Source: an uncultured bacterium (lineage in GTDB: Bacteria; Cyanobacteriota; Vampirovibrionia; Gastranaerophilales; Gastranaerophilaceae). From it: a stretch of 44,604 nucleotides of DNA. The notes beneath the pieces are model-generated. The model ran no database searches, was not told the DNA's origin, and saw only the letters and a list, made by a program, of their open reading frames with translations. The translations under genes and the position numbers were made by a program. Of this stretch, positions 1 through 2,468 are shown piece after piece; position 1 is the first letter of the stretch; every line of letters starts with the position of its first letter. Location of the stretch: positions 1-44,604 of the forward strand of contig CASFCQ010000008.1 of the NCBI GenBank assembly GCA_949293185.1, in the 5' to 3' direction.

Positions 1-2397
1 TACTAACTCCTTGGCATTCTCAGGCAATGGCTCATCAGGATATTGCTTTTGCATAAAATCAATGTAAGCATCGACAACTTCTGACACTGTAGCGTCATCC
101 GAAAGTCCCAAAGCCGCATACATATCATCTTTACCGGAGAAGTCTTGTGCCATGCTTATGTTTTGTTGATAAGTATTAGCAGTGATTGTACCGTTTTGGC
201 TGCCTTCAATCTGGTCGTCAAATACAATTGTTCCGTTTGTATTGGCATTTAAAGTTATTGCAGGGATTGTCGTTCCATTGCTTTCCTGATAAATGATTTT
301 ATCTGTATCCATTGATACAATGGAGCTTTGCATAGATGATACAGGCTGTGCTCCTTCAACATAGATAGCGTTAGGAGTTTTTACTCCGTTGGATTCCGTG
401 TAGTTTCCGCTAAAGACCGATTGTCCGCCGTCTTTGGCAATAATATTCAGGCTTTCTTTTGTATAAATTGCTCCGCCCTGGGCTTTTCCCGTTTCGGATT
501 TAGCATAATTGTTTATGAAGCTGGAATTGATAATACCGCCGACTACGTTGTTGTATTTATCCAGCTCACCAATTACTCCATTTTCGTTATAAATCGCTCC
601 GCCCTTAGCATAAGAACTACCTGACGCATAGTTGCCTATAAAGTTACCTGTTATATTACTTATTTCAGCACTAGTTGAGTCAGTAGCCCAGTTATAAATC
701 GCCCCGCCTTGGGCATAAGAATTAGTTGAAGACGCATAGTTACCGATAAAGTCACCTGTTATATTTCCGATTGTTCCGTAACTGTTATTAATTACCCCGC
801 CAGAGGCATAAGAACTACCAGAAGCATAGTTGCCGATAAAGTCGCCTGTTATATTGCCGATAGTTGCACCGTTATCAATCGCCCCGCCTTTGGCAGAAGA
901 ATTAGTAGACGACGCATAGTTGCCGATAAAATCGCCTGTTATATTGCCGATTGTTCCGTGGTTATAAATCGCCCCGCCAGAGGCAGAAGAATTACCAGAC
1001 GCATAGTTACCGATAAAATCGCCTGTTATGTTGCCGATCGTGCCACCTTGATTGTTATAAATCGCCCCGCCAGAGGTAGAAGAATTACCAGACACATAGT
1101 TGCCGATAAAATTGCCTGTTATATCGCCGATCGTGCCACCTCGACTGTTATAAATCGCCCCGCCAGAGGCAAAACTATTACCTGATACATAGTTACCAAT
1201 GAAATTACCTGTTATATCGCCGATTGTTCCTTCTTCGTTATAAATCGCTCCGCCACAGGCAATAGCCAAATGATTGGATGCAGCTACATATACATAGTTG
1301 CCGATAAAATCAGCCGCTATGTCTGTAACTGTACCTGAATTATACAAAGCACCGCCAAAGGGGTTATTACGTGCAAAGCCTGATACTTTAGCTTCAACAC
1401 CATTGTTTATAAAAGCACCAGTAATTACTGTTATTGTTCCTGAATTGTACACAGCACCGCCTGATACCTGTGCATATTTAGAATCTGATGTTGTTGTTGA
1501 CTCCAGTGTACCAGTGACTTTGTTATCTTTATAAAGTACGTTATTTATACTTGTTGTTTTGTCTGCCGGATTGTTTAATCCGACACCGCCTTCGATAATA
1601 TACGGATTAAGTGACGTTGTACCGGATGGGTCAGTAACTGATGGATTGCTTGTTAGTCCTTCTACTTTTTGGGTAAAAGAGTCAGGGTTATATTTATATG
1701 TTATTGTATTTTTACCTTCGGTAGGTGCTGATACTTCTTTTATTTCAAGTTTGCCTTCTGCATTTTGCGACCATTCAAAGTATTTTGTTGTATCGCCTTC
1801 GCCAATGTTTGTTACTGAGTCTTTGAGGTTTACAAGGTAGTATTTTGGGGTTGTCTCGATTGTTGTGACTTCTTTATACTGAATATCGGGAAGTCTGTCG
1901 TCTGCTGCAACTTCCTGACCGGTTTGAGGGTCATAGTATTTTATAACTTCTGTTTTATCATAAAGGGTTATTGCGTTTTGAGGAAGATTTTCAGGGTCTG
2001 CGTTTTCGATTTCTGTAAGGGTATAAGCAGACTCCGGATAAACTTCACTTGAGTCTGGCATAGTTAACTCTTGATTATGCAGGTTGTCTAAAGTAGGTAC
2101 GGGTGCTTGTGCCATTGCCGGTGCTGCGATGAAGAAGGATAATGCAAGGGTCAAGGCGGCTGTTTTTAATGCCTTTTGCCAGTGCCAACCCTCACCCTGC
2201 CCTCTCCCATCGGAGAGGGGGAATAAATTTTGTGTCATTCTGAAGCATTCATCGCTGCGGTTTGTATTTAAATTAAAACAAAAACCTACTAAAACCTTTG
2301 ATATTACTGAATTACAGAGTTTCGGGGGGGGGGGTAAAATATTACTATATAAGCATTTTTGAATGTTTAAGAAATTTCTTGCAAGAAAATTTTTCAT
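1..2397 (-). CDS. Secreted repeat-rich surface protein (adhesin-like), C-terminus beyond the window
   Basis: The reverse-strand frame is open without a stop from an ATG at 2397 to the window edge (799 codons), so the protein is incomplete. A clear Sec signal peptide occupies about residues 77-96 (hydrophobic ALTLALSFFIAAP, then AMA before Q97), preceded by an unusually long 76-residue leader. The ATG has an AGGA ribosome site about 9 nt upstream. From about residue 290 onward the protein carries imperfect ~30-residue repeats of the form GGAIYN-GTIGNITGDFIGNYASG, resembling right-handed beta-helix or autotransporter-type passenger repeats. A C11 tract lies in the leader (codons 22-26). An internal ATG at 2238 lies downstream of the tract but has no visible ribosome site. 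The likely role is an exported surface or adhesin-type protein. The anchoring domain would be off the left edge and cannot be seen. Confidence 0.8.
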   Translation of the reverse strand, partial: MKNFLARNFLNIQKCLYSNILPPPPKLCNSVISKVLVGFCFNLNTNRSDECFRMTQNLFPLSDGRGQGEGWHWQKALKTAALTLALSFFIAAPAMAQAPVPTLDNLHNQELTMPDSSEVYPESAYTLTEIENADPENLPQNAITLYDKTEVIKYYDPQTGQEVAADDRLPDIQYKEVTTIETTPKYYLVNLKDSVTNIGEGDTTKYFEWSQNAEGKLEIKEVSAPTEGKNTITYKYNPDSFTQKVEGLTSNPSVTDPSGTTSLNPYIIEGGVGLNNPADKTTSINNVLYKDNKVTGTLESTTTSDSKYAQVSGGAVYNSGTITVITGAFINNGVEAKVSGFARNNPFGGALYNSGTVTDIAADFIGNYVYVAASNHLAIACGGAIYNEEGTIGDITGNFIGNYVSGNSFASGGAIYNSRGGTIGDITGNFIGNYVSGNSSTSGGAIYNNQGGTIGNITGDFIGNYASGNSSASGGAIYNHGTIGNITGDFIGNYASSTNSSAKGGAIDNGATIGNITGDFIGNYASGSSYASGGVINNSYGTIGNITGDFIGNYASSTNSYAQGGAIYNWATDSTSAEISNITGNFIGNYASGSSYAKGGAIYNENGVIGELDKYNNVVGGIINSSFINNYAKSETGKAQGGAIYTKESLNIIAKDGGQSVFSGNYTESNGVKTPNAIYVEGAQPVSSMQSSIVSMDTDKIIYQESNGTTIPAITLNANTNGTIVFDDQIEGSQNGTITANTYQQNISMAQDFSGKDDMYAALGLSDDATVSEVVDAYIDFMQKQYPDEPLPENAKELV
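625..1330 (-). repeat. Tandem ~87-108 nt coding repeats (GGAIYN...GNITGDFIGNY)
   Basis: The motif gttgccgataaaatcgcctg and variants recurs at about 631, 739, 829, 919, 1006, 1099, 1192 and 1297. The spacings are 108, 90, 90, 87, 93, 93 and 105 nt, all multiples of three, so copy-number change would keep the frame. Each unit encodes about 30 residues of a beta-helix-like repeat. More degenerate copies flank the block on both sides. High DNA identity between units makes recombination-driven length variation plausible. Confidence 0.85.
2190..2221. repeat. GC-rich REP-like palindrome inside the adhesin leader
   Basis: CCCTCTCC (2200-2207) and GGAGAGGG (2212-2219) form a perfect 8-bp inverted repeat with a 4-nt spacer. 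It is preceded by CCCTCACCCTG and is strikingly GC-rich for this genome. It reads in frame through the leader of the surface protein (PLSDGRGQGEGWHWQ). The composition and hairpin look like a dispersed intergenic repeat that has become coding sequence between the C tract and the signal peptide. That origin is inferred; only one copy is in this window. Confidence 0.55.
2324..2334. repeat. Homopolymer G11/C11 tract, candidate phase-variation switch
   Basis: Eleven consecutive G on the + strand are read as C11 in the reverse-strand gene at codons 22-26 after the ATG at 2397 (Pro-Pro-Pro-Pro). With 11 bases the frame runs on through the signal peptide. Removing one base leads to TAA after CGA AAC TCT GTA ATT CAG. 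Adding one leads to TAA after GAA ACT CTG. The window therefore captures the ON frame of a slippage-prone tract. Confidence 0.75.
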
Positions 2398-2468
2398 AAT
2401 ACTAATCCTGTGTTCGACTATACTAACCAAATTGTTTTTTCTAAATTAATAATTCCCGTTTTGAAAAT

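Follow-up and report, generated by a model that had tools for sequence, protein, structure and literature searches.

A poly-C tract in the leader of a putative surface protein gene

The DNA analyzed here, referred to as the window, is a stretch of 44,604 nucleotides (nt) from an uncultured bacterium of the Gastranaerophilaceae (Cyanobacteriota, Vampirovibrionia; assembly GCA_949293185.1, contig CASFCQ010000008.1, positions 1 to 44,604). Near its start the minus strand carries a gene for a putative surface protein, and this gene contains a C11 tract, read as G11 on the plus strand at 2324-2334, which is a candidate for a slippage switch. The distance from the minus-strand ATG at 2397-2395 to the tract is 63 nt (21 codons), which places the tract in codons 22 to 25/26, as an earlier note on this DNA had claimed. 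Because the open frame continues to the contig start, the gene is represented by its first 799 codons and lacks its 3' end. The features of the locus are as follows.

2445-2417, minus strand: -35/-10-like pair TTTAGA-17-TATAGT, seen in the sequence
2406-2409, minus strand: AGGA, the likely ribosome binding site, 8 nt 5' of the leader ATG
2335-2397, minus strand: N-terminal leader before the tract, MKNFLARNFLNIQKCLYSNIL, 21 codons; lead lengths compared across related loci
2324-2334, minus strand: C11 homopolymer (G11 on the plus strand), proposed slippage switch, ON with 8, 11 or 14 bases; assessed by shuffles and by paralogue tracts of C11, C12, C10 and C9
2291-2300, plus strand: companion motif AAAACCTTTG (consensus AAAACCCTTG), which starts at a distance of 33 nt from the tract along the G strand
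2239-2323, minus strand: leader part behind the tract, KLCNSVISKVLVGFCFNLNTNRSDECFR, open in the ON frame only, from frame and paralogue comparison
2236-2238, minus strand: internal in-frame ATG (MTQNLF...), alternative start lacking a Shine-Dalgarno sequence
2110-2175, minus strand: Sec-type signal peptide core KALKTAALTLALSFFIAAPAMA, near-identical in paralogues
1-2109, minus strand: passenger with an N-terminal domain and GGAIYN/FIGNY repeats, a predicted beta-solenoid (sequence and model), cut by the contig start

The tract thus lies in the leader ahead of the signal peptide, in line with the earlier note. Computed for the window gene, the frame is open with 8, 11 or 14 C. With 9 or 12 bases a stop follows ETL at 3 codons beyond the tract, and with 10 or 13 a stop follows RNSVIQ at about 5 codons, so that the length of the tract apparently determines whether the gene can be read; this confirms the claim that the frame is open at 11 bases and closes early at 10 or 12. 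An identical TATAGTCGAACACAGGATT block is found 5' of the leader in relatives from genome G011.

Long G/C runs form a separate class

The earlier note had regarded an 11-base run as improbable by chance in this DNA, and this is borne out. A run of 11 did not arise in any of 100 dinucleotide shuffles of the window, and at the composition of the window (35.5% GC) about 0.64 runs of at least 9 and 0.02 runs of at least 11 are expected genome-wide. The whole 2.196-Mb genome contains nine G/C runs of 7 or more, namely two of 7, none of 8 and seven of 9-12. As no runs of 8 occur, the long runs constitute a class of their own, and the tract is longer than chance would produce, as in simple-sequence-repeat phase-variable loci.

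Six of the seven long tracts sit in leaders of one surface protein family. Paralogues were found by searching the genome with the leader protein and leader DNA of the window gene. The leaders of C18, C29, C36 and C56 are 91-96% identical to it over 128 bp, and these near-identical leaders carry different tracts: 11 in the window copy (C8) and in C18, 12 in C29, 10 in C36 and 9 in C56. Reading from the leader ATG stays in frame in C8 and C18 (ON) but is out of frame in C29, C36 and C56 (OFF); C36 has a second frame break in the signal region as well. Another copy, C55, has a leader without a tract (TCCACTCCCAAGCC) that is in frame, and by its sequence is a fixed ON copy. In a second leader type the G strand is coding, with G11 in C42 (OFF), an interrupted GGTGGGGG in C3 and GGGGG in C4. 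The seventh long tract, C11 on C71 (L039, 3774-3784), is located within an AlgX/DHHW-like acetyltransferase gene (PF16822, E=4e-19). Relatives (L091, L092, L162) have C10 or C11 at the apparently equivalent site of an AlgX-like acetyltransferase gene, and tracts of this type may confer phase-variable acetylation of a surface polysaccharide.

Tract length varies within the genus

Among 23 genomes of the genus, sampled with one genome per species, 17 have G runs of at least 9. The search of other genomes of the clade that the earlier note had proposed retrieved the same C-type leader with tracts of 9 (G007), 10 and 11 (G011, G009) and 11 and 13 (G012). Together with the paralogues, lengths of 9, 10, 11, 12 and 13 are thus found between near-identical flanks, and the uniform length in relatives that would have spoken against a switch is not seen. 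Seven of 29 classifiable leaders in the genus are ON (p=0.33 vs 1/3). This is near one third, the mixture expected for random drift. Readings in an OFF frame stop after a median of 3 codons. The longest run seen, a G22 tract, stands beside a KPLYHVVS-like leader (L108, G142).

It is very improbable that the length differences are homopolymer assembly or sequencing errors in metagenome-assembled genomes. The related named genomes are indeed metagenome-assembled and several contigs end near leaders, but errors in length cannot produce the excess of long runs with its missing 7-8 class. Within several genomes, moreover, the tract keeps a consistent mod-3 relation to the ATG-to-tract distance (the lead).

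The putative surface protein

The passenger contains 11 GGA-type and 12 FxxN motifs. No Pfam family scores above its cut-off for the window protein; PF02415 (E=0.067) and TIGR01376 (14.7 bits) both remain below theirs. AlphaFold2 gives a long solenoid of regular short strands (predicted local distance difference test, pLDDT, 77; predicted template modelling score 0.77), a beta-solenoid passenger as in Chlamydia-type Pmps or type V autotransporters, and the search of this model against the PDB returned no match at E<0.001. We thus predict a beta-solenoid with Pmp-like GGAI/FxxN motifs, which is likely displayed at the surface. Full-length paralogues end with a conserved C-terminal domain, which in the window gene is cut off. 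Searches with the paralogue C-termini, by profile against the PDB, found no Pfam, NCBIfam or PDB match, and a model built from two sequences reached a pLDDT of 26.

Poly-G leaders elsewhere in the family

Of 191 genomes drawn from the family, 35 contain the pattern TTTTACCCCCCCCC, with up to 27 copies per genome, whereas the reversed control is nearly absent. In a class-wide sample, runs of at least 10 number 33-111 in ten other family members, 12 in one and 6 in the window genome; genomes of other families of the class mostly have 0-2, up to 16. Genomes G030 and G031 were analyzed in regions picked around known tracts, and in the 244 kb selected in this way from G030 the runs have 10-15 bases and lengths of 7-9 are absent. 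In G153, G140, G026, G106 and G091 most copies lie between a Shine-Dalgarno sequence with an ATG, opening about 6-12 codons, and a downstream gene, and the genes behind these tracts are mostly prepilin-like (FTLAEVLIT; N_methyl, PF07963).

The phases of these leaders are not distributed evenly. The tracts of G140 (L130-L149) have 9 or 10 bases; at a length of 8 or 11 most of them would be ON. In G153 (L110-L129) leads of 19 or 25 mostly go with tracts of 10/11 and a lead of 24 with 11/12, and each combination avoids ON. In both sets and in L249-L260, ON is nearly absent, both OFF phases are present and tract length tracks lead length. The sampling of G140 and G153 began from TTTTACCCCCCCCC, a pattern that leaves out shorter tracts and introduces a bias at the base following the tract; a search of G140 with at least 6 C gave the same number of sites, with the listed sites at the same positions, and no shorter ON versions had been missed. 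Judged from these leaders, OFF seems to be the default in other genera.

A different arrangement is found in G031 (L273-L292, e.g., L275 near 1553), where 28 loci share a leader open reading frame and the loci read are prepilin genes with their own ATG. Here the leader is followed by the anti-Shine-Dalgarno sequence GACCTCCG and then by a terminator-like hairpin with a T run. Rather than a drifting tract, this looks like a candidate leader-peptide attenuator that works through translation of the leader. In G096 and G198 (L229-L242) G9-11 is directly followed by TAAAAGTGGTATAAT, as in a promoter spacer, and tracts elsewhere also lie within genes. The promoter-like tracts may be sites of transcriptional phase variation.

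A probable slipped-strand switch and its alternatives

From these data we consider it likely that the tract is a slipped-strand translational phase-variation switch of a Pmp-like surface protein family. Translation from ATG 2397 would run through a short leader and the C11 tract into the signal peptide and the beta-solenoid protein. A one-base slip during replication would bring a stop a few codons past the tract, so that the surface protein is not made, and a reverse slip would restore it. Such a tract is present in no fewer than six members of one paralogous family, in two leader types with C or G on the coding strand, and as these members stand in different phases the population would be a mosaic of surface protein combinations. 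For the window gene itself, both length change within a clone and the use of ATG 2397 are what we infer.

Several observations weigh against this reading. The window genome encodes MutS and MutL, which may slow slippage. The internal in-frame ATG 2238 could bypass the switch in the window's subfamily, and between the tract and this ATG the variable columns number 8, 8 and 2 at the three codon positions, without an excess at the third. Outside the genus of the window only 7 of 84 leaders are ON, much rarer than random drift predicts (binomial p about 1e-7, which is too small a value because the loci are paralogues and not fully independent). Finally, the leader tract of G031 is G11 in 26 of 28 loci, and as one of the two G12 copies has a lead one base shorter the phase is kept in 27 of 28. 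The rarity of ON and the near-constant G11 indicate that not all tracts of the family drift freely.

If translation started at ATG 2238, the product would begin with MTQNLFPLSDGRG and continue into the signal peptide, and the tract, lying in the 5' untranslated region (UTR), would at most tune the level or structure of the mRNA. C-type paralogues have an ATG at the equivalent place, the paralogues C3 and C7 carry the same MTLLR..QTAALTLALSFF part downstream of other upstream sequence, and the substitutions just described lack a coding-type pattern. However, this ATG has no Shine-Dalgarno sequence. Candidate upstream starts are preceded by AGGA, AAGGG, GCAGGGA or similar. Both alternative frames run into stops directly after the tract. 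The lead is 54, 57 or 63 nt in 14 loci of four genomes with two exceptions; a GTG start in one related locus gives 57 or 54, and a lead of 55 occurs in two G012 loci only, where it is offset by a different downstream frame. Insertions and deletions in the leaders are multiples of 3, whereas the 5'UTRs of the same loci differ by insertions or deletions of 1-2 nt. Several Pmp-type loci from other species of the genus, and most short-leader prepilin-type loci of other genera, lack any ATG, GTG or TTG from the tract up to the signal sequence. An upstream start is needed in these, and we take a start before the tract as the common plan. Of the earlier note's proposal that a start at 2238 would refute the switch, the in-frame ATG stands, though without a Shine-Dalgarno sequence, and the stretch from the tract to this ATG has no codon-position bias; in many related loci translation must begin before the tract. 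Use of ATG 2238 as the actual start is unlikely.

We also doubt that the tract serves programmed slippage or frameshifting, or belongs to a leader-peptide attenuator, so that slippage of RNA polymerase or the ribosome, and not an inherited length change, would set a steady low output. The scarcity of ON leaders in other genera, the tracking of lead by tract length and the conserved G11 before the anti-Shine-Dalgarno sequence and hairpin in G031 would fit such a mechanism. In the genus of the window, however, phases are mixed, with roughly one third of the leaders ON, and tract length differs among near-identical leaders. Moreover, both OFF phases occur in G140 and G153, hence there is no single direction of shift. 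For genera outside that of the window, a contingency system that is OFF by default is likelier than programmed slippage or attenuation.

The proposed slipped-strand switch in the window is best read as part of a family-wide contingency repertoire. For the family as a whole we propose, with less than even confidence, that poly-G leaders form a large, mostly OFF repertoire for prepilin-like and Pmp-like secreted proteins with up to about 100 tracts per 2-Mb genome, in which tract and lead lengths together avoid the ON phase in some genera and each protein is shown only by rare cells; in at least one genome the tract would have been taken into a leader-peptide attenuator and its phase conserved.

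Comparison with known phase-variable systems

The best-known cases of simple-repeat phase variation come from a small number of pathogens. In Neisseria, poly-G in PilC and CTCTT repeats in Opa, near the signal sequence, switch a surface protein. As in these genes, the repeat described here occupies the beginning of the coding sequence, ahead of or within the signal peptide, and would switch a whole surface protein; the Neisseria proteins are unrelated, and here the tract is well ahead of the signal core in a leader common to a paralogous family. The Neisseria phasome is treated in PMC5953494. Campylobacter has poly-G/C tracts of at least 7 G, mostly 9-10 and mostly within genes; its contingency loci share with the present ones mononucleotide G/C tracts, ON/OFF frameshifting, many loci per genome and an AT-rich host (PMC6321876). 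Unlike in Campylobacter, the tract is part of a leader that precedes a Sec or prepilin signal, MutS and MutL are present in the window genome, and some Gastranaerophilaceae genomes have about 100 tracts of at least 10.

Homopolymer phase variation has been hypothesised for the Pmps of C. pneumoniae (PMC4514472), a family that resembles the present one in its paralogy, its GGAI/FxxN repeats and its homopolymers in genes for surface proteins. Here, in contrast, scores for Pmp repeats are below the Pfam and NCBIfam cut-offs, the phylum is another and no autotransporter barrel is recognised. Long N-terminal extensions before the Sec signal are described for autotransporters (PMC2805444); the likeness to these is one of plan, and the extension here carries a homopolymer. 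The earlier note knew of no such case in this lineage, and in the open literature, i.e., outside subscription papers and preprints, we found no report linking Gastranaerophilales or Melainabacteria with phase variation.

With dozens of such tracts in relatives, this little-known lineage seems to vary its surface randomly, much like certain pathogens. In a gut-derived, non-photosynthetic relative of the Cyanobacteria, such switching appears to match or exceed the scale known from Campylobacter, and on secreted proteins, which suggests strong selection on the surface by immunity, phages or neighbours. The annotation of these genes in metagenome-assembled genomes as frameshifted, as pseudogenes or with a wrong start is likely misleading, and the switch is measurable directly in existing metagenome reads.

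A companion motif of the leaders

In the genus, an AAANCCY motif accompanies 43 of 64 tracts on the companion side of the G strand and 1 of 64 on the other side. The consensus AAAACCCTTG mostly lies at a distance of 30-33 nt from the G run, whichever strand codes for the leader, and has 27 copies in the genome vs 9 of its reversed control. We considered a dispersed mobile element and rejected it, as most copies away from tracts resemble ordinary sequence, many of them apparently coding, and the motif is therefore a companion of the leaders and not a free element. It often forms an inverted repeat with CAANGGTTT, and this repeat is enriched (0.33 vs 0.11 in mononucleotide shuffles); a recombinase site is possible but not supported further. 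In the window, a repeat-like CCCTCTCCCATCGGAGAGGGGG hairpin is also present at 2195-2225, inside the leader reading frame of the gene (FPLSDGRGQGEG).
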